From the NCBI GenBank assembly GCA_021808055.1, contig JAKBCH010000005.1, forward strand, positions 1-64,000: 64,000 nucleotides of DNA, written 5' to 3'. Source of the stretch: Pseudomonadota bacterium. Its GTDB lineage: Bacteria; Pseudomonadota; Alphaproteobacteria; Acetobacterales; Acetobacteraceae. Shown piece after piece: positions 14,912-36,306 of this stretch. The translations under genes and the position numbers were made by a program. Numbering within the stretch: position 1 is the first letter of the stretch; every line of letters starts with the position of its first letter. The notes beneath the pieces are model-generated. The model saw only the letters and a program-made list of their open reading frames with translations. It was not told the origin of the DNA and ran no database searches.

Positions 14912-15994
14912 ATGAAAACAAATCCTTTGCAAGCCATTGGGCTGATGTCCGGCACGTCGCTGGACGGGGTGGATGCCGCCTGGGTGCAGACCGATGGCGA
15001 AACCGTAAGCGGGTTCGGCCAGGCCGCGACTTTGCTCTACGAGGACAGCTTGCGCGCGGATTTGCGCCGGATTCTTGATCTCGCCCCTGCCCTCGCCGCG
15101 GATGATCCGTTGCTGCGCGACGTTACGGAGAAGCTGACCCGCGAACATGCCCTGGCGGTGGCGGTGCTGGGGAAGGCGGCGGACGTGATCGGGTTTCATG
15201 GCCAGACCATTCTGCACGCGCCGGAAGCGGGGCGAACCTGGCAGATTGGCGATGCGGCCTTGCTCTCTCACATCACCCGCCTGCCGGTGGTGCATGATTT
15301 CCGTTCGGCCGATGTGGCGGCGGGTGGCCAAGGCGCGCCACTGGTGCCTTTGTTTCACGCGGCGATGGCCAAGGAGATTGAAAAGCCGCTGCTGATCGTG
15401 AATATCGGCGGGGTGGCGAATGCGACATGGCTGGGGCCAAACGGCGAGATTATCGCCTGCGACACCGGGCCGGGAAACGGGCCGCTGGATGATCTTGCCC
15501 AAAAACATCTTGGCCAGGCTTACGACAAGGATGGCGCGCTGGCGGCTTCCGGCCAGGTGGATTATGCGCGGCTGCGGGCGCTGTTGGCGCACCCATTTTT
15601 TGCCCTGCCGCCACCAAAATCCCTGGATCGGTTGAGTTTTTCATCGCTTATCGAGCAAGCCATTGCAGGGTTGGCGCCGCCGGAAGCCGCCGCAACGCTG
15701 GCAGCGTTTATTTGCGCCGCGATTGCACAAACGCCCTGGCCCGCTCCACCCAAACAGGTGCTGGTAACCGGCGGAGGGCGGCACAATGCCATTTTGATGG
15801 CCGGGCTTGCCGCGCGCTTTACCGTGCCGGTGCAGCCGGTGGAGGCGGTGGGCTGGAATGGGGATGCACTGGAAGCGCAATGTTTTGCGTTTCTGGCGGT
15901 GCGTTCCCTGCGCGGATTGCCGCTTTCGCTGCCTTCCACCACCGGCGTTAAAGCGCCGCAAACCGGGGGGCGGCTTTACGGTACGATTTTATAA
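14912..15994 (+). CDS. anmK: Anhydro-N-acetylmuramic acid kinase
   Basis: Phosphorylates and opens 1,6-anhydro-MurNAc from recycled peptidoglycan to give MurNAc-6-phosphate. At 360 residues it is close to family length. The signature GLMSGTSLDGVDAAW is at residues 10-24, GFHGQTILHAP carries the substrate-binding region, and IANIGGVAN-like (LIVNIGGVANATWLG), CDTGPGNGPLDD and VTGGGRHN are the ASKHA-fold phosphate and adenosine motifs. ATG 14912 gives the family N-terminus; a TTG at 14876 would add 12 residues. The 3' end overlaps the converging membrane protein gene by 19 bases. Confidence 0.93.
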   Translation: MKTNPLQAIGLMSGTSLDGVDAAWVQTDGETVSGFGQAATLLYEDSLRADLRRILDLAPALAADDPLLRDVTEKLTREHALAVAVLGKAADVIGFHGQTILHAPEAGRTWQIGDAALLSHITRLPVVHDFRSADVAAGGQGAPLVPLFHAAMAKEIEKPLLIVNIGGVANATWLGPNGEIIACDTGPGNGPLDDLAQKHLGQAYDKDGALAASGQVDYARLRALLAHPFFALPPPKSLDRLSFSSLIEQAIAGLAPPEAAATLAAFICAAIAQTPWPAPPKQVLVTGGGRHNAILMAGLAARFTVPVQPVEAVGWNGDALEAQCFAFLAVRSLRGLPLSLPSTTGVKAPQTGGRLYGTIL

Positions 15995-17721
15995 AGCACC
16001 CAGCCATTCTTGTTGTGCCCCATTGCGTGTAGCCAAGGTGGTGGCGTGTTTTTATTAAGCGCGCCCCATAATGTTTTGTCTGGCAGGTCATTCACCAGGA
16101 GATAGCGACCTGCTTGCGGGCAGAACAGAATATATTTAGCACCTGTGGCAATGACAGCTTGCGGCGGGGTGGTGCCGGGTGTGGCGCGCCAGGCCGCACG
16201 GTCTTTCATGAAACCAGACACGCCATGTTGATATAGCGAACCTACGGTCAGTACATGCGAACGATAAAGCAGCTCGGGTGTATCTTCTGGCTGGGCCAAC
16301 ACCACCTGCCCGGCGGCCGGGGCAAGCAGCGGGGCGATGCCGAGCAAATTGCAGGAAGGAAAGGCTTTTGCTTTAGCTGGGGTTGGCGTTTGCCCTTCCG
16401 CCTGCGCCGCGAGAAAAGGCGTAAGAAGGATTAAGGCCAGTAGCCCTATGCGCTTAATCCCTGCCAAACTGCCGCCTTTGGCTTCGATGGCGCTGAGTGC
16501 CACAGGCAAAAAAGCAGCCGCGAAAATGGCGGAGATTGATGTAAACAGCAAATAATTCGCACCCAGCCACAACGCCACGGCGGCGCAAATCGCTACATAA
16601 GCCCAGGCGAGCGGCGTGCGGAGTGGCGCGCCAAACGGGGGGGGGGCTGCCAGGTCAGCGAGGCTTGGTTTACGCTCATGCCAGGCGCGCAAAGCCGCAT
16701 ACAGCACTGCCCAGCTGCCTGGCAGCAGAAAGACGGGTAGTTCCAGCCCATGAAGAGAACTCAACTCAAGCATGACTCCAAAGAAAGCTTTCTCCTCCTG
16801 TGGCGGCAGCAGGCCCGATGGACCCTCGATGACTCCGGGGAATGCGATGATCCAGCCCAACAATGGCAACGCCATAATCAATAGCCCCAGCCAGCCACGC
16901 CAGGGTTTGGGGGGCAGACGAGAAAGCACTGTAGCACTCGCCAGCAGAATAAGCCCCAGGGCGACATAAACCAGGGAAAGCCTGTCGATTTCAGGCACCC
17001 CGTAACCGCCAGCGGGTGGGTCTACAAAAAGACCAAAGGCAAGAACATCAAAAAATCCCGCACCGGTTGCCATGAGCGTTGCTGCATTCGGTGTTTTTAG
17101 CCAGCGCAGCGCCAGGGCGGCATAGGCCATCAGCACGAACGGCATGGTCTCCGGTGTCATCCAGATTGCAAAACCGCCAGCGATACCGGCGAGGAATCCA
17201 AACCATCTATCTTCCCGCAGGGCACGCAGCACGCAACCGGCGGTGAGCGCGATAAGCGCCAGCAGCGCGATATGGTAATGCACGACGCCCGGCAGCGCGA
17301 TTGACTCCAGAGCGGGCAAAAGTGCGGCCGCCGCGGCTGCCGCCCAAAGATGGCGGCGCAAAGAGAACGGTTCCACGGCCCAGGCCAGCGAAACGCCCAG
17401 CGCCCCAACCCCCAGCGGCCCCAGCGCTACGCCCGCCGCGAACAACGCCTTATGCCAACCGATGAAAGGCACCATGGGTGCGGCGAGCAGCCATATGATG
17501 ATGTCCAGCAGCCGGGACCACTCCACCATCACCCCCGCACCGGATTGGTCGCCTGCGACATTGGTGAGAAGATGCCCGGCTTTGATGCCTTGCTCGATCC
17601 GCAGCAAGCGCATGTAGGAATCCGGGTCTTGCAGGCTGCCCGCCAGCACAAGGTGCCAGTCATGCAGCCCGACAAGAATATTCAGCCCGGCGCTGAGCAG
17701 AAAAAGCAGCGGATAGATCAA
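15976..17721 (-). CDS. STT3/GT-C-like polytopic membrane protein
   Basis: A 581-residue protein with about a dozen hydrophobic segments and a soluble C-terminal region (about 440-581). The first external loop carries QDPDSYMRLLRIEQ (D32, D34), the acidic DxD-type motif seen in oligosaccharyltransferase-like GT-C proteins, and MVEWSRLLDIIIW and WMTPETMPF also fit that family. It is probably a lipid-linked sugar or glycan transferase, but the substrate is unknown. The start is a TTG whose bases overlap the TGA of the upstream FMN protein (TTGA), so translation is coupled. It is third in a PhoR-like kinase, FMN protein, membrane protein string. Confidence 0.7.
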   Translation of the reverse strand: MIYPLLFLLSAGLNILVGLHDWHLVLAGSLQDPDSYMRLLRIEQGIKAGHLLTNVAGDQSGAGVMVEWSRLLDIIIWLLAAPMVPFIGWHKALFAAGVALGPLGVGALGVSLAWAVEPFSLRRHLWAAAAAAALLPALESIALPGVVHYHIALLALIALTAGCVLRALREDRWFGFLAGIAGGFAIWMTPETMPFVLMAYAALALRWLKTPNAATLMATGAGFFDVLAFGLFVDPPAGGYGVPEIDRLSLVYVALGLILLASATVLSRLPPKPWRGWLGLLIMALPLLGWIIAFPGVIEGPSGLLPPQEEKAFFGVMLELSSLHGLELPVFLLPGSWAVLYAALRAWHERKPSLADLAAPPPFGAPLRTPLAWAYVAICAAVALWLGANYLLFTSISAIFAAAFLPVALSAIEAKGGSLAGIKRIGLLALILLTPFLAAQAEGQTPTPAKAKAFPSCNLLGIAPLLAPAAGQVVLAQPEDTPELLYRSHVLTVGSLYQHGVSGFMKDRAAWRATPGTTPPQAVIATGAKYILFCPQAGRYLLVNDLPDKTLWGALNKNTPPPWLHAMGHNKNGWVLYKIVP

Positions 17722-26422: not shown

Positions 26423-26728
26423 TTGAAACTTCTCTCCGCTGTTTTTCTCGCCGGTCTGGCCGCCTCACCTGCCCTGGCCCGCCAAGACCCCACACCGCCG
26501 CCATCAGGCGAAGTGATCCATCTGTTTGGGCCAAATTCAATCACATCGCAGATTATGCCAGGAACGCCACCCAGCACACCAGGCAGCGCTTCTACTTCCG
26601 GTGAAACAACCAGCGCACAGCCAACGGCTGAACCCACATTTGGCGATATTTTTCACCAGATGTTCGTTACCGGCGACCCGAACAAGAATGCGCCCAATTT
26701 TCCGCGGGGGCGCAGCGGCGCGTTCTAG
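26423..26728 (+). CDS. Small secreted proline-rich protein
   Basis: A 101-residue hypothetical protein. The N-terminus MKLLSAVFLAGLAASPALARQ is a good Sec signal peptide with cleavage after ALA. The mature part is rich in Pro, Ser and Thr (TPPPSGEVIHLFGPNSI, GTPPSTPGS) with no recognised domain. The start is a TTG at 26423 with GGAG about eight bases before it. Its stop is immediately followed by a palindromic repeat element. No function is proposed beyond a periplasmic or exported location. Confidence 0.6.
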   Translation: MKLLSAVFLAGLAASPALARQDPTPPPSGEVIHLFGPNSITSQIMPGTPPSTPGSASTSGETTSAQPTAEPTFGDIFHQMFVTGDPNKNAPNFPRGRSGAF

Positions 26729-26866
26729 AGCAGGATGGTTTTAGATCGAATCACGAGAGTGATCCGCTCTAAAATCTGAATCCGCCTCGGTATCATCAAA
26801 ATAGAGCGCGATTCAGACTTTAGGTTTGCTCGCAAACTGAGCGAACCTGAAGTCATCGCGCTCTGA
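26729..26866. repeat. Composite intergenic palindromic element
   Basis: Two inverted repeats in tandem. The first pairs 26739-26754 (TTTTAGATCGAATCAC) with 26759-26774, 14 of 16 positions complementary, loop GAGA. The second pairs 26803-26812 (AGAGCGCGAT) with 26855-26864 perfectly and continues inward with imperfect pairing around TCAGACTT/AAGTC and an inner GCTCG/GAGC stem. The 3' arm region of the first (TAAAATCTGAATCCG) is also roughly the inverse of the 5' arm of the second. It resembles the dispersed AGAGC-bounded palindromic repeats of alphaproteobacterial intergenic regions. It lies between two genes that point toward each other and may also end transcripts. Confidence 0.65.
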
Positions 26867-26910
26867 AGCTTATAGGAGTTGGGCCAGACGATGCCGGCCC
26901 GATCGGTTGG

Positions 26911-27460: not shown

Positions 27461-28075
27461 TTAGCGGGAGTAGAACTCGACCACGAGATGCGGTTCCATC
27501 TGCACGGGGAACGGCACATCCGCCAGCTTGGGTGCGCGCACGAAGCGGCCCTTCATGGCGCGGTGGTCGGTTTCGATATATTCTGGCACATCGCGTTCGC
27601 CGCTCTGCGCGGCATCTAGCACCACGGCAAGCTGCTTGGACTTCTCGCGGACCTCGATGATGTCGTTATCCTTCACCTGATAGGAGGGGATGTTGACCTT
27701 CTGGCCGTTCACGGTGACGTGGCCGTGGGAGACGAACTGACGGGCTGCGAACGGGGTGATCGCGAATTTCATGCGGTAGACAACCGCGTCCAGGCGGCGC
27801 TCCAGCAACTCAATCAGGTTCTCAGAGGTGTCGCCCTTCCGGCGGACGGCCTCTTCGTAATATTTGTAGAAGGTCTTTTCGGAAATATTGCCGTAATAGC
27901 CCTTCAGCTTCTGCTTCGCCATGAGCTGCACGCCGAAATCGGTCGGCTTCTTGCGGCGCTGGCCATGCTGGCCGGGGCCGTATTCACGCTTGTTAACAGG
28001 CGATTTAGCGCGGCCCCACAGGTTTACGCCCAGGCGGCGGTTGATTTTATACTTGCTCTCACTGCGCTTGGTCAC
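27461..28075 (-). CDS. rpsD: 30S ribosomal protein S4
   Basis: A primary 16S rRNA-binding protein of the small subunit. 204 residues, the normal alphaproteobacterial length, starting [20 protein letters not shown] after the initiator, with [29 protein letters not shown] and the S4 RNA-binding domain (about 93-155: [31 protein letters not shown]). The start is a GTG at 28075; a longer frame to 28165 is unlike S4. The gene stands alone here and ends at a strong terminator. Confidence 0.97.
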
Positions 28076-28188
28076 GGCGCTGGTACCTTTCTTGTTAAAT
28101 CCGCCAGTAGTCTCTTTTCCGTTTTCACGGCAAAGAGCGGGCGCGGGCGACCACCGCCCGTCCACGTTCCCGGCAACGAAGCGCGGCT

Positions 28189-29586
28189 CTAACGGGTTGC
28201 GCGGGGGGCGTCAATGGTTGTGGCGCGCTGCCAGCTTTGCGGCAAGGCGGCGAGAGACAGCCTGATTTGCCGCCGGGCGCGGTGAAGGCCGATTTCCGCT
28301 TGCCGACCCATCCAGACGCCCGCATCGCCCTTTGCGCGGGGCAACCAGCCCTGCCCTAGAATCAGCCCGTGCATGTTGCCTAGGCAAAGACCCAGCTCGC
28401 GCCGGTCCTCCGACTCAGGGTCGGTGTCAGCGGGGGAAATGGCGGGGCATAGCAGGGTAAAGCCCTTAACGGGTTCAGCAAAGCTGAATGATGCATAGCG
28501 CCCGCCTGACTGGCGGGTGAAGCGGGGCATGGCGTCCATTCCGCCGCTAACCGCCCGCAAGCGTGGCGTGTAGCCGGGCGTGAAACCTGCGATGAGCGCC
28601 TGTTCGTGCAGGCTGCGGCGCACCGCTGCCAGCCGCGCGCCGCTGGTAACATGTGGCGCGAAGAGCCGCCGGGCCGGGCTGCGACGCCCCATTTCATGGT
28701 AAAGCTCGCCGCGATTGGCGTTGCAAAAATAGGATTCACATTCCAGCCCTTCGGCCAGCATGATGTCGTGCCGGTCTAGCTCCAGATGATAATAGGTCAT
28801 GGCTGGAGAAGTTTCGTCGTGCAGAATGGTGACGCCGTTGACGAGATGAACGACCGGGATGAGCACCCCCTGCGCATAGACGCAATGCAGGGGCGAAAGC
28901 CGCAGCGTTTTGAACGGTTTGCCGGGGCCAAACGCGCCGGGCAGAATGATGATTGGCCGGGCGGATTTGGCGGAACGGGGCCCGAGATCCAGCGTGCGCC
29001 AGCCGACCCAGCGCACCGGGCGGCGTTCCCCGGCAGCGTTGATGATGGGGTCGCCAGGGCGGATGGTTTCCACCGGCCGGTAGCCTTGCGGCGTGAGGAT
29101 GCTGGTGCCACGCGCGTAACAGGGCAGCTCGCCACCCAAGGTAATGAGCGCGCCGCCGCTGCCATCCTTGGTGATGGCAAGGCTGGGAAGCGAGGTGCCG
29201 CTGGTGGCAACCGCAAAGGTTTGCGCGATGCTCCCTTGGTTGAGGATCTCGATGGTATTACCTGCAATGCTGACGAGATTGGGGGCGATGCCCACCAGAT
29301 CCACCGCATCGAAGCTCGACATGCCAGCGATGCCCGGCAGGTCGGCGGCTGCGTCGTCCACAACCAAAAGGGCGGAGGTGCCGGTGAAACTAATCGGCGC
29401 GCCGGAGAGATCGGTGCTGGAGAGTTCCAGCGTGGTACCGGTGGCGATTTCCAGCGGGCCAGCACCGGTGAAACTGCCGCCTGCCATGAGCAGCTTGCCG
29501 CCTTGGGCCAAAATTGTGCCGGCGCCAAGCAAGGTGGCGGCATTGATGATACCATCGCCCGCAATTGTGCCGGTGACATCCAGCAA
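28189..29586 (-). CDS. C-terminal Hint_2 half of the giant surface protein, as a separate open frame
   Basis: The frame downstream of the G9 tract is open for 465 codons. After about 130 residues of beta-repeat passenger it enters a Hint_2 domain at [20 protein letters not shown] (Cys nucleophile at about 155), then [44 protein letters not shown] and [23 protein letters not shown]. It ends with about 150 residues unlike other genes here. It lacks a clear start of its own and should be read as the natural continuation of the upstream frame. Confidence 0.6.
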
Positions 29587-29600
29587 GGTTGCGGAAAGCT

Positions 29601-29609
29601 CCCCCCCCC
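29601..29609 (-). repeat. Homopolymeric G9 tract inside a coding region
   Basis: Nine consecutive C's on the plus strand (G's on the coding strand) within the codons for SLAGGG of the giant Hint_2 protein. Slippage to ten G's, or to seven, restores the full-length frame, while eight or nine G's truncate it. Such tracts drive phase variation of surface proteins in many bacteria. Confidence 0.85.
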
Positions 29610-32521
29610 GGCGAGACTGACATTGCTGAATGTGCCAGCCCCGGTGGCCGCAAGCCGCCCGTCGATAGTGAGCGTGCCGCCGGTTTGCGTGAATGTTGCG
29701 GCGGTGAGCCGTGCATCCGTGCCGATGAAGCCCTGCCCCGCCTGGAACGATGCCGCACCGGTGATATTGAGCTCGGCCGCGCCGCCCAGAGTGAGGCCGC
29801 CAGTGCCAATATAACTGGCCGCGGCAATCGTCGCGAAGCCGGTTATACCGATGGTGCCGCTATTATTTACGCCGCCGAGATTGCCCGAAGCGGCACCATA
29901 AGACTGGAGCGTGCCGAATGTGCCGAGGCTTAAGCTGCCCGCTGTAAAGGTGCCAGATTCATCCAGCACCGCAGCGCCGCTAACCCCGAGCAAAGCCGCG
30001 CCGGAAAGGTTGAGCGCGCTCACGACGGCAAGGCTGGAGCCAGCCCCCGCACCCGCCGCCGTGAGGGTGAGATTGCCAGAGATGCTGGCGGAATTGGTGA
30101 GCACTTCCAGCGCGCCAGCGCCGTTGGTGTCGCCGATAACGACATCGCCCGCCAGCGCGGCACTGGCGGCGGCACCGAGGATGACGTTGCCGCCATTATC
30201 GATCTGCAACGCCGTGCCGGAAAAGCCGCTGGCGATCAGCTCATCGTTAAATTCGATCTGCCCAGTGGCCAGCACACCGCCAAGGGCATGGGCTGTGGTA
30301 TCCACATAAAGCCCGCCAGTGCTGCCGAAGGAGACGAGTTCAGCCTCGGTGAAGCCAAGCCCGGAATAACCATTCACCGTGCCGCTGCCGCCACGGTCTA
30401 TGGCGATTAAACTTTGCAGCCCCGCCAGAATGCCGGTGCCGCTGCTGATCGTAAGCACGTCCAGCGCGCCGGTGCCGGTATAGCTGACGCTCGCGATCTC
30501 GGCATTGAGGCTGCTCAGGTTGCTGGCGGTGAGGGTCAGCGCGCTGGATGCTGAGCCTCCCGAAGCGGAGAGGCTGCCATGCGCGGAGGATAAAGTGATG
30601 GTGAGGCTTTGGGTGGTGGCGGCGGCCAGCGCCACGCTTATGCCCAACAGCGGCTGCGCCACCCCGGCTGTGGCCGCGATGCCGCCATTGCTGGTGACCG
30701 TGGCAATGTTTGAATGCAGAACAACCGTTGCATCGCCAGCGGCATCAAAGCTGGCGGCGGGCAGCAGCCCGGCAGGGATGTTGGAAAAGATTGTGTAGCT
30801 TTGCGTGGTGCCGTTGGAATCCACCCCCGAGACAACGAAAGAAGACGCACCCGAGATGGTGCTGATATTGTGCACCACTAAGCCAGTGAGGCCGGGAAAG
30901 ACCAGCTCATCCCCAACGGCAAAGCCTGAGACCGTGCCGGAAAATGCTTCCGGCCCGGAGATGACGAATGCACCGCCATTGCCACCCAGCGGGTTGGCAT
31001 AACCGCCGGTAACAGGCAGGCTGCCCGGCCCGCCGAAATTCAAAGTGACGCCGCTTTGCACAGTGAGCGGGGTGGTGTTGAAAATGCCGACAAGGGGCGT
31101 GACCGGACCCAGCACCATCACGCCGCCGCCCGCAACATCCAGGTTCACACCAGAGGAGACCATGCCGGCATCAATTTCCAGCGTTTCGCCCTGCAAGGCG
31201 AGGATGGTGCCAGTGCCATCGATCATGCCCGAAGCGGAGAAATCTCCCACGGAAAGCGTACCGTTACCTTCCAGTATGGCACCGCTGGCAAGGGTCAGCT
31301 CCTCCTGAAAGTCGTTCGCGGCACCGGTATCCACCGTTAGCCCGCTTGCGAAATCCACCAGGGCGTTGGTGTTGAGCACCAGCTCGCCTTGCAGGGAAGC
31401 CGTGCCGCCGATGAGGAGCTGGCCGGATTCTACAATGTCCTGCGTCGCGATTGTTCCGAAATCGTAACTCGTTCCACCCAGAAGGGCGGAATTATACGGC
31501 AGCTCAAGCACGGCACCCGGTGCTATGGAAACCGCGCCATTGCCAACAAGATTGCCGAGAGCGGAGAGCGTACCGCTGACATCCAGCGTGCCGGAGAGTG
31601 TATCAATGCCGGTGACGAGCGTTTGCGCGCCTTGTGCGTAAGTGGCCGTGCTGGCGGGCGCGCCCACCGTGTTGAGGTAGATGTTGCCAGAGGTGACCGC
31701 ACGCGGCAGCACGCCATCGTGGTTCCAGAGATCATAGGTAAGATGCTGGCCGGAAGCGAGCGATGGCCCGGCAAATTCCAGCGAAGTGAGCAGCGTGTTG
31801 AGTGCACCGATATCGTTGGCGCTGAGCGTGAGGTGGATGGTGCCGGTGCCGATACCATCCGCCGAGATGCCGGTGAGTGCGCTGTAATCGGGCAGCAGCA
31901 ATGCGCCCGCAGAAACAGCCAGGGTGAGTTGCAGCGTTTCCTCAGCCCCTAACCCCATCGCGGCAAGGGCGCTGGCTGTAGGGTCTGATAGCAGCAAATC
32001 TGGCAAGGCAAGCGGCTGGTTGGGCGAAAGCGTAACCAGCTTGGTGGGGGCCACAAAGGCAGGCGCTGTTTGCGGCACGATGGACAGCGCGAAATCGCTC
32101 TGTGCGGCAGCACCTTTATTATCAGTGGCGGAGAGGGAAATCTTGTCCGATGTTATGCCGGATGGTTCGGTAAAGGATAATGTGGCCAGCGCGGCGTTGA
32201 CCTGGGCTGTGCTGCCGGAAATTTGCAGCGTGTTGCCGCTGGAGACCACAGCCGCGCCCCCGCTGGCGTTGGCCGAGAGGGTTGCGGCGCTGTCTCCCGT
32301 CACCAGTTTCAGGCTGATGGCGGCACCCGCCGCGGAATCAGTCACCACCAAGCTGGTGGGCAGGCCGATCAAGGACGACAGGCTCGGTTGCCCGGCTATG
32401 GCGGTGATGGTCGCGGGAACGTTGATGTTTATGCTAGAGCTCACAACTCAAGGTTACATAAATTCAACAGTGGATCAATAAAACCTTGCCGATTCACATA
32501 AATAATTCTCTGGAAACAACC

Positions 32522-34780
32522 ATGGCAGAGCGTGCCGCGCCGCTCCATACTATGGGCATGAAGACAAGGCATAAGAACTCGAAGCCTAAACCGCTGGAAA
32601 GCATGGCAAAACGTGCACCCTTGCCCAGCCGCGATTCGATTAAGCGTTTTCTGGCGGAAGCGCCGGGGGCACCGCATTTCCGCGACATTGTGCGGGCGTT
32701 TTACGTGGCGCCGGAAGACCGCAAAGCGTTGCGCGGCATTGTGAAATCGCTGGAGGTGGAGGGCCATGCCGAGCGCGCCGGGCGCAAACGCCATATAGAA
32801 GCGGGGCGGCTGCCTGAAAATGCGCTGGTGGAGGTTACGGGAATTGACCGCGACGGGGAAGCCATCGCCCGGCCGGTGGTGTGGGACGCACCAGGCAGGC
32901 CACCGGTGATATTCATGCAGCCGGAGCGTAAGGGCACCGCCGCATTGGCGCCGGGGGCCAAGGTGTTGGCGCAGCTAAGGCGCATTGGGCCGGACAAATA
33001 TGAAGGCCGGACCATTAAACGCGTTGAGGGGCAGAGCGGCAGCATTGTCGGGCTGTTCCGCAAGACAGCGCAGGGTGGGCGGATAGAGCCAACCGACCGC
33101 CGGCAGAAAGGCGAATGGGTGGTGCCAGAGGGCGAGACGATGGGGGCGATGGAGGACGAAATTGTCCGCGCTGAACCGCTGCCAGGCAAGCCGTTCGGGG
33201 CGAAGCCCGCGCGGGTGACAGAGCGGCTGGGCAATGCGGAGGATGCGCGCTCGGTAAGCCTCATCGCCATCGCCCAGCACGGGATACCGATGGAATTTTC
33301 TGAAGGCGCGCTAAGAGATGCCAAAAAGGCCAAGCCCGTGGCACTGGGAAAGCGGACAGATTTGCGCGCGTTGCCGCTAATCACCATCGACGGCGCCGAT
33401 GCACGGGATTTTGACGACGCCGTGTTCGCCGCGCCGGAACCGCATGGCTACCGGCTGATCGTGGCGATCGCGGATGTGGCGCATTATGTGAAGCCCGGTA
33501 GCGCGCTGGACCGCGACGCCCGGACGCGCGGCAATAGCTGCTACTTCCCCGACCGCGTGGTGCCGATGCTGCCCGAGGAGCTTTCCAACGGGCTGTGCTC
33601 GTTAAAGCCCGATGAGGAACGCGGCTGTTTGTTTGTGGAAATGCATATCGACGTGCATGGCAACAAGCTGCGCCACGCTTTTGGGCGCGGGTTGATGCGC
33701 TCAGCCGCGCGCAAGACCTATGAGGAGGTTCAGGCGGAGTTTGAGGATAATCCTGAGAATCACGCCCATATCTATGCGGCCTATCATGCGTTGAGCGAAG
33801 CGCGGGCCAGGCGGGGTACGCTGGACCTTGATCTGCCGGAGCGCAAGGTGACGCTGGGCGATGATGGGCAGGTGCAGAACGTGGCCCCCCGCCCGCGTTT
33901 GGCCGCGCATAAGCTCATCGAGGAATTCATGATCCTCGCGAATGTCTGCGCCGCGGAGGAACTTGAGCGGTTGAAGCTGCCCTGCATGTACCGTGTGCAC
34001 GCGCCGCCGACGCCGGAGAAGCTGGATAATTTGCGCGGGTTTTTGGCGACGCTCGATATCTCATTAAAACCGGGCGACCAATTGCATCCGCGTGACCTGG
34101 ACGGGATTCTGAAGCTCGTGGCGGGCACGGCGTCCTCAACCTTGGTGAATGAGACGATCCTGCGCTCCCAGAGCCAGGCGGAATATTCTCCTGAAAATCT
34201 CGGGCATTTTGGCTTAGCGCTGAGCCGCTACGCGCATTTCACCTCACCAATTCGCCGGTATGCCGATTTGCTTGTGCACCGCGCGTTGATTAAAGGGCTG
34301 AGGCTGGGAGCTGACGGGCTGACAGAGGAAGAGATGCACGCCTTTGCCGACTCAGCCGAGCACATCACCGCCACTGAACGCCGCGCCACGCTGGCGGAAC
34401 GCGATTCGACTGACCGCTACCTTGCGCTCTATTTGCAACACCGCGTGGGAGAGTTGTTCCAGGCCAGGGTTTCGGGGGTGACGAAGTTCGGACTCTTCGC
34501 CACTTTAACGGAAAGCGGTGCAAGCGGGTTTTTGAGCATGGCAAGTTTGCCGGATGATTACTGGATGTTTGACGAACGCACCCAGACTTTGTCCGGCCGC
34601 AAGAGCCGTGTTGTGTTCTCATTAGCTCAAGAGATTGAAGTGCGGCTGAACGAGGCAAGGCCGGTGACAGGCGGGTTGCTGCTTGGGCTGGCCGGGGCAC
34701 CTGCCCGCGGGCGGCCGCGTGCGGATGGCAAGGCGAAGCCCACGAAAAAAACCAAAATGAAGCCGAAGCGCGCGCGGTGA
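32522..34780 (+). CDS. rnr: Ribonuclease R
   Basis: 3'-5' exoribonuclease of the RNase II/R family that degrades structured RNA. About 750 residues: a basic N-terminal helix-turn-helix region (LPSRDSIKRFLAEAPG), cold-shock domains (about 75-210), the RNB catalytic domain with the metal-binding cluster DGADARDFDDAV (about 290-301), the SNGLCSLKPDEERGC and FGLALSRYAHFTSPIRRYAD segments, then an S1 domain (FQARVSGVTKFGLFATL) and a Lys/Arg-rich tail. The start is uncertain: ATG 32522, 32552, 32558 and 32603 are all in frame before the conserved part, and none has a strong ribosome binding site. Its TGA overlaps the GTG of the next gene. Confidence 0.93.
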   Translation: MAERAAPLHTMGMKTRHKNSKPKPLESMAKRAPLPSRDSIKRFLAEAPGAPHFRDIVRAFYVAPEDRKALRGIVKSLEVEGHAERAGRKRHIEAGRLPENALVEVTGIDRDGEAIARPVVWDAPGRPPVIFMQPERKGTAALAPGAKVLAQLRRIGPDKYEGRTIKRVEGQSGSIVGLFRKTAQGGRIEPTDRRQKGEWVVPEGETMGAMEDEIVRAEPLPGKPFGAKPARVTERLGNAEDARSVSLIAIAQHGIPMEFSEGALRDAKKAKPVALGKRTDLRALPLITIDGADARDFDDAVFAAPEPHGYRLIVAIADVAHYVKPGSALDRDARTRGNSCYFPDRVVPMLPEELSNGLCSLKPDEERGCLFVEMHIDVHGNKLRHAFGRGLMRSAARKTYEEVQAEFEDNPENHAHIYAAYHALSEARARRGTLDLDLPERKVTLGDDGQVQNVAPRPRLAAHKLIEEFMILANVCAAEELERLKLPCMYRVHAPPTPEKLDNLRGFLATLDISLKPGDQLHPRDLDGILKLVAGTASSTLVNETILRSQSQAEYSPENLGHFGLALSRYAHFTSPIRRYADLLVHRALIKGLRLGADGLTEEEMHAFADSAEHITATERRATLAERDSTDRYLALYLQHRVGELFQARVSGVTKFGLFATLTESGASGFLSMASLPDDYWMFDERTQTLSGRKSRVVFSLAQEIEVRLNEARPVTGGLLLGLAGAPARGRPRADGKAKPTKKTKMKPKRAR

Positions 34781-36306
34781 GGCAAAGGGCTGTTCTTTTT
34801 CTGTTTTGCCTGCTGTTGCCGGTGGCACTGTGCTGCCGCGCGGCGGATGCTGCCGCGAATTTCGACACCGCGGCAGCGGCGAACGTGTGGTCGGTGGCGC
34901 TGGCCTATATCGCGCCTCGTGCGTTAAACCCGGTTACGATTCCGCAGATGACGCTCTGGGGCTTGAACGGGCTTGCCGCCCTGGACCCCAACCTCAACAC
35001 CACCTTGCAGAGCGGCGAAATTCGGCTGTTTGGACCGAACCAGCTTTTAGCGGCGATTCCCGCCCCCGCGCCAACAGATGCAAAGGGCTGGGGCGAGGCC
35101 GCAGCAAAAATTGCGGCGGCGGCATATGCGGCCTCCCCGGCGTTGCAGCAAGCGGGCACGCAAGGGATTATAGGCAATTTCTTCGACGAGCTGTTCAACC
35201 ATTTCGACCCTTATTCTCGATACGAAGACCCCTTGCAGGCCGCGCAGGACGAATTGATGATTACCGGCCTTGCCGGGACGGGACTGACCTTGAAGGACCA
35301 GCATGGCAAAGTGGTGATTGCCCGCGTGGCCGCGGATAGCCCGGCATCGGACGCGGGACTTCAGCCTGGCATGATCGTTAACGCGATGAATGGCCAAACC
35401 GCTTATGGCGGCATGGCGAATACGCTGAATGAGGATATGGCGGGGCTTGCCGGAACCAGCGTTTCAATATCCGTAACCGACCCGCAAGCGGATATGGATG
35501 AAGCGCCGCAAAGGCTGACGCTGATCCGCGGTTTTATTCCGCCGCAAACCGTATTCAGCGAGCCGCCCGTGGTGGCTGGCACCGCATATCTTAAAATTAC
35601 CGGCTTTAATAAAGGTACGGGGGATCAGTTTTCGGCCCTCCTGGCGAAAATCATGTCTCAGCCCGTAGCACCTACAGGGTTGGTGTTGGATTTGCGGGGC
35701 AACCGGGGCGGCGTGCTCCGCCAGGCGGTGATCGTAGCGGATTCGCTGCTAGAATCCGGCCCGATCGCAGAAACGAATGGGCGGGATTCAGATGCCGACC
35801 AGATGTTCAAGGCCGAGGGGGCAGACCTGACAAACGGTGCTCCGTTGGCCGTGTTGGTGGATGGGCAGACTGCCAGTGCCGCTGAAATATTGGCTTCAGC
35901 CCTGGCCGATGACGGGCGCGCGGTGGTGATTGGCTCGGAAACACTCGGCAAGGGCCTGGTGCAGACCGTGACCTCTCTGCCCGATGGTGGCGAACTTTAT
36001 GTAACCTGGAGCCGGGTTTTGGCGCCTAGGGGATGGCCCTTGCAGGGGCTGGGCCTGATGCCGCAGATTTGCACCAGCAATGGGGCCGTTGCCCTCAACC
36101 AGCAGCTTGCGGCGCTGGCCAATGGCCGGAACCTCATGGCACCAGCATTGAGCCAGGCGCGGGCCATGCGCCCACCCGTTGGTATTGCCGCCATGCTGGC
36201 CGTGCGGGGCAATTGCCCGGCGGATATTGGCGGAGAGCTTGACGAGCAGGCCGCGGCGGCCGTGCTTAGCACACCAGAAATTTACCAATCGGCGCTATTG
36301 CATTAA
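34777..36306 (+). CDS. S41-family carboxyl-terminal processing peptidase
   Basis: A periplasmic serine protease of the CtpA/Prc type, 509 residues. Signal peptide about 1-25 (FLFCLLLPVALCCRAADA), a helical region, a PDZ domain (about 165-255, with GTGLTLKDQHGKVVIARVAADSPA) and a catalytic core with YLKITGFNKGTGDQF and LVLDLRGNRGGVL. The nucleophile Ser367 is in GQTASAAEILASAL and the general base Lys392 in GSETLGKGLVQ, 25 residues apart as in the family. GTG 34777 overlaps the rnr stop (GTGA), so it is coupled to RNase R. The roughly 100-residue C-terminal tail has no recognised domain. Confidence 0.9.
   Translation: MRQRAVLFLFCLLLPVALCCRAADAAANFDTAAAANVWSVALAYIAPRALNPVTIPQMTLWGLNGLAALDPNLNTTLQSGEIRLFGPNQLLAAIPAPAPTDAKGWGEAAAKIAAAAYAASPALQQAGTQGIIGNFFDELFNHFDPYSRYEDPLQAAQDELMITGLAGTGLTLKDQHGKVVIARVAADSPASDAGLQPGMIVNAMNGQTAYGGMANTLNEDMAGLAGTSVSISVTDPQADMDEAPQRLTLIRGFIPPQTVFSEPPVVAGTAYLKITGFNKGTGDQFSALLAKIMSQPVAPTGLVLDLRGNRGGVLRQAVIVADSLLESGPIAETNGRDSDADQMFKAEGADLTNGAPLAVLVDGQTASAAEILASALADDGRAVVIGSETLGKGLVQTVTSLPDGGELYVTWSRVLAPRGWPLQGLGLMPQICTSNGAVALNQQLAALANGRNLMAPALSQARAMRPPVGIAAMLAVRGNCPADIGGELDEQAAAAVLSTPEIYQSALLH

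Follow-up and report, generated by a model that had tools for sequence, protein, structure and literature searches.

In the window examined here, a stretch of 64,000 nucleotides of contig JAKBCH010000005.1 from an alphaproteobacterium of the Acetobacteraceae, the gene for a giant, putatively adhesin-like protein ending in a Hint_2 domain is broken in its reading frame, exactly where the coding strand has nine G in succession; the gene is intact in the related acidophiles examined, and the coding sequence shows no decay on either side of the break. We infer, with a probability of roughly 60%, that a real but incidental slip, occurring once in a G run that had formed passively, and not an evolved switch, underlies the break. 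The elements concerned are the following.

29601..29609, minus strand: run of nine G at which the frame breaks, located from the sequence and by comparison with locus L001 of the closest lineage
28797..32444, minus strand: frame as read from the GTG at 32444, 1,215 amino acids, made up of the passenger and an out-of-frame tail of 268 residues
28189..29859, minus strand: frame open from stop to stop that includes the last strands of the passenger, the Hint_2 domain and a conserved C-terminal tail

The tract reads as nine C on the plus strand. The frame running from GTG 32444 to 28797 overlaps with the Hint_2-bearing frame, which stays open from about 29859 down to its stop at 28189. Homology to the 1,417-amino-acid protein of L001 (90.5% nucleotide identity over 4,256 columns), whose frame is intact, switches frame at the tract, residues 1–947 being matched in one frame and residues 946–1417 in the other; the 1,215-residue product accordingly consists of 947 residues homologous to the L001 protein, followed by the 268 out-of-frame residues up to a stop. 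A sequence-only reading of this stretch had claimed that the frame of a Hint_2 protein of about 1,400 residues breaks exactly at the nine G, and that a passenger of about 950 residues and the Hint_2 part form one protein; the first claim is borne out by the frame change in the L001 homology, and the second by the relatives, in which the two parts are joined. The break falls precisely on the gene's longest G/C run, two thirds of the way in and away from the start of the gene, and a frame break at a homopolymer usually points to slippage or to a homopolymer error. The length of the tract by itself is unremarkable for the window, because about 1.2 runs of at least nine G or C are expected from a first-order Markov model (0.54 of C and 0.64 of G) and two are seen; on this strand within this gene, the same model expects about 0.04 such runs.

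The frame of the gene is conserved in the relatives. With matches taken at E 1e-80, 31 of the 38 genomes of one genus carry the family, versus 0 of the other 62 in the set of 100 relatives searched from the L001 genome. The genus appears to be Acidocella, because the genome of L048 encodes 310 amino acids 100% identical to a protein of Acidocella aromatica and several hits are named Acidocella. Among the 31 relatives' loci, 26 contain full-length uninterrupted frames (1,375–1,434 codons stop to stop), L067 and L071 contain shorter yet uninterrupted frames, and the gene is cut by contig ends in L045, L062, and L065; the frame is thus uninterrupted in 28 of 28 complete genes (26 long, two shorter), and no frameshift break was seen among the 31 loci, the three cut ones included. 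Four matches (L028, L034, L035, and L040) were at first flagged with one internal TGA, which in the longer loci L057, L063, L064, and L069 is the stop ending the frame after the conserved C-terminus, and these four loci were therefore counted as intact. A scan of a genome collection yielded four loci. The search with the passenger protein returned 69 proteins including that of the window, of which 55 are 1,370–1,450 amino acids long and 62 carry PF13403, with 33–84% passenger identity among the near-full-length hits.

The tract itself is not conserved. When its site was read codon by codon in the relatives, 30 of 31 being readable, 27 were found to have G runs of three or fewer and L049 one of five, while seven-G runs occur at the site in L001 and in the distant L070; the tract length in related genomes, which the sequence-only reading had proposed to check, does not support a shared tract, a run of at least seven being present in two of the 30 and a run of nine in none. 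Using 200 synonymous codon shuffles of the 26 full-length relative genes as the null model, the observed G/C runs numbered 56 versus a shuffle mean of 140.4 for lengths of at least six, 12 versus 41.4 for at least seven, 1 versus 15.7 for at least eight, and 0 versus 3.3 for at least nine, and for the thresholds of six, seven, and eight every one of the 200 shuffles equalled or exceeded the observed count. A control with neighbouring genes (20 rnr and 20 ctpA-like open reading frames (ORFs)) gave 20 versus 80.6, 4 versus 26.4, and 0 versus 8.0 for runs of at least six, seven, and eight, respectively; an earlier control with 63 opposite-strand ORFs, a set that may include shadow ORFs, gave 8 runs of at least seven versus 33.1. 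Long G/C runs are avoided in the family, as in the neighbouring genes. A family keeping a switch should show enrichment of runs at its tract, and the depletion seen therefore disfavours an evolved switch. The earlier reading of the gene as a classic phase-variable switch is not supported by these results, with the tract absent in nearly all relatives, all 28 complete genes intact, and long runs depleted.

The two sides of the break have been kept under similar constraint, with ratios of nonsynonymous to synonymous substitution rates versus L001 of 0.166 (passenger) and 0.181 (Hint part). When L043 and L044 are used to polarise the changes in the Hint part, 17 synonymous and 13 nonsynonymous ones fall on the window branch versus 16 and 7 on that of L001 (Fisher P 0.40), small counts of low power. 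Against L001, the gene shows neither a further indel of its frame nor any other inactivating change. An old pseudogene was therefore rejected, given the similar constraint on both sides and the lack of a further frame indel versus L001, with the polarised counts being small. Of the 64,000 bases of the window, 43,969 were aligned to the L001 genome (at least 80% identity, at least 300 columns), giving 40 indel rows, 34 of which are not divisible by three and represent 22 distinct indels. Judged by the probable start codons, every one of them except the G tract is intergenic, falls in a 5′ extension of an ORF, or is compensated a few bases away; on our reading, the G tract would be the sole frame-shifting indel left uncompensated in conserved coding sequence among the compared bases. 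The frame change is therefore either recent or artefactual, because the downstream part is without decay and the change is the sole uncompensated coding frameshift in the comparison. An identical 1,215-amino-acid product is also encoded on a separate contig of 6,525 bases, too short for the contig of the window.

In the preferred explanation, a G run would have arisen passively from GGG glycine codons, and one recent slippage event in this run would have taken a genus-conserved, adhesin-like Hint_2 gene out of frame. The product as read would then comprise the passenger and a nonsense tail without the Hint-bearing end, and Hint processing, together with any function dependent on the C-terminus, would be lost. 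The break is likely to be a real mutation, incidental rather than part of an evolved switch. Several points weigh against this explanation. Runs are depleted a little less strongly in the family (12/41.4) than among the ORFs of the neighbour control (4/26.4). The 64-kb window contains two G/C runs of at least nine versus one in 286,067 bases of 30 loci of the genus (L043–L072; post hoc Poisson P of about 0.02), and the lineage of the window may carry more long runs than its relatives. The 6,525-base contig and the window may have been assembled from one set of reads. Furthermore, several database proteins on long contigs, namely the short Hint proteins P0070 (570 amino acids, contig of 102,930 bases), P0073 (783 amino acids, 145,979 bases), and P0084 (311 amino acids, 143,588 bases), and the 719-amino-acid passenger P0047 (142,917 bases), which ends unlike its relatives, may represent further broken copies in other species and a recurrent breakage in the family; alternatively, such short proteins may reflect gene-calling choices or contig ends. 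Finally, a switch confined to this one lineage would look identical in a single consensus. P0081 (310 amino acids, A. aromatica) was rejected as a broken copy, because it matches the end of L048 with 100% identity and the frame of L048 is intact.

An error in the consensus or in base calling, by which the tract would have another length in the cell and the gene would be intact, is a possible but doubtful alternative to the incidental slip. It is consistent with the intact frame in 28 of 28 complete relatives, with a break placed precisely in the gene's longest run of G or C, and with the undecayed downstream part. However, no other uncompensated coding frameshift was found, on our reading, in the 43,969 compared bases; a ten-G run on the plus strand (16637–16646) sits inside an intact minus-strand ORF of 581 amino acids (15976–17721); and the same 1,215-amino-acid product recurs on another contig, albeit perhaps from the same reads. 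Of six relatives searched for the ten-base run, four have a readable site, and none of these four carries it.

It is unlikely that the tract is an evolved contingency locus, in which slipped-strand changes in tract length would turn the Hint end of a surface adhesin on or off among the cells of a population. The long G tract at the break sets the frame, the halves are undamaged, the passenger is predicted to be adhesin-like, the tract lengths differ between the two closest lineages (nine in the window versus seven in L001), and the candidate broken copies among the database proteins would also fit; yet the tract is not conserved and long runs are depleted, the gene is intact in all 28 complete relatives, no export signal was found by a crude check of the first 30 residues, and the break falls at two thirds of the gene's length rather than close to its start. 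Similarly improbable is the view that a giant Hint adhesin, constant until recently, has newly come under slippage control, its run having grown into the mutable range so that cells would alternate between both products. Transcriptional or ribosomal slippage on the nine-G template, making both products at once, is scarcely credible: runs of identical bases can promote slippage and both parts remain constrained, but a recent change accounts equally well for the constraint, and the relatives manage without a run.

The incidental slip is worth comparing with known homopolymer systems. As described in a report on Bordetella (PMC1891110), homopolymer length can alter the expression of phase-variable genes, including surface genes, and the tracts vary among strains, some even within single cultures. 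The likeness to the present gene lies in a homopolymer whose length can affect expression, whereas the tracts vary there (PMC1891110) and here there is a single consensus and the tract is not conserved. Likewise, according to PMC2831843, some strains carry poly(A) frameshift alleles of inlA, which resemble the present case in a frameshift at a homopolymer within a gene and differ from it in that the run is poly(A) at the 5′ end, whereas the G run here is located two thirds of the way into the gene. In large surface-type genes, a frameshift at a G run is easily mistaken for phase variation, and the relatives serve to tell an evolved switch, with its tract kept, from a passing slip, in which the tract is missing and runs are avoided. 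If a newborn switch were true after all, it would show a contingency locus at the moment of its birth in a free-living acidophile. A literature search found nothing related to phase variation in Acidocella, its one hit being unrelated as judged from the title and the opening of the abstract.

The Hint-bearing frame contains two parts beyond the last passenger strands.

28723..29124, minus strand: Hint_2 domain, residues 155–288 of the frame read from TTG 29586, PF13403 match
28192..28722, minus strand: C-terminal tail after the Hint domain, conserved in the family in a 50-row alignment

The Hint_2 profile (PF13403) is matched at E 5.5e-40 with 137.6 bits versus the curated cut-off of 28.4, and C156, H234, H267, and H273, conserved Cys and His residues that we presume to form the Hint core, are invariant across the 50-row Hint alignment. 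The predicted fold of the Hint part may resemble the Hint folds of 2lwy (bacterial intein-like) and 6riz (intein), with TM scores to target of 0.56 and 0.74, respectively, and 14% identity in both alignments; the best Foldseek E-value is 2.3e-3, none being at or below 0.001, and the Hint profile matches 2lwy at E 8.6e-4 over 28 positions only. Splicing or cleavage by the Hint part is putative here. The passenger may be described as adhesin-like from its predicted structure, and its profile searched by sequence against solved structures gave nothing at E 0.01. The protein had also been called exported; a recognisable signal was not confirmed, with no lysine or arginine in the first 30 residues in this crude check. 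An autotransporter (type V) was rejected, as Pfam shows no C-terminal beta-barrel, giving only Hint_2 above the cut-off in P0002, P0012, and P0037, and a polymorphic toxin with Hint was rejected, as the tail is conserved in the 50-row alignment and rpsD, not an immunity gene, lies next door.

The gene is flanked by the following neighbours.

27461..28165, minus strand: rpsD (ribosomal protein S4), the gene immediately downstream, with a match in 29 of the 31 loci of relatives
32486..34780, plus strand: rnr (ribonuclease R), divergently oriented on the upstream side, with a match in 21 of the 31 loci of relatives

The two loci without an rpsD match are L045, which ends before rpsD, and L072, which shows none; the ten without an rnr match are L045, L062, and L065, cut by contig ends, and L066–L072, with none in the stretch examined, so that neither gene was matched in L072. 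The ORF at 34777–36306 is taken by us to be ctpA. The Acidocella Hint_2 (PF13403) proteins of about 1,400 amino acids share with the gene in the window its sequence, its architecture, and rpsD next door, and differ in that their frame is intact in all 28 complete genes versus broken in the window. No description of a large Hint adhesin-like family beside rpsD was found among the papers listed in the literature searches, one of which brought up mostly unrelated HINT genes, and such a family, found in one genus, merits characterisation. A plasmid search gave 31 records; the 20 of them that were listed align with the query at its rpsD or rnr end and leave the Hint gene unmatched. L067 shows a shorter form of the Hint protein adjoining rpsD (754 codons stop to stop), and database proteins of nearly this size are P0085, P0087–P0090, P0092, and P0093 (724–748 amino acids); no separate N-terminal passenger was detected upstream of L067 or L071 among the best 3 of 59 full-length queries per locus. 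A stretch of up to about 146 bases, intergenic at 26719–26870, is repeated in full or partially at nine further sites of the L001 genome with 70–92% identity. A second Hint_2 protein, of 410 amino acids, is encoded at 1155–2387 on the minus strand.
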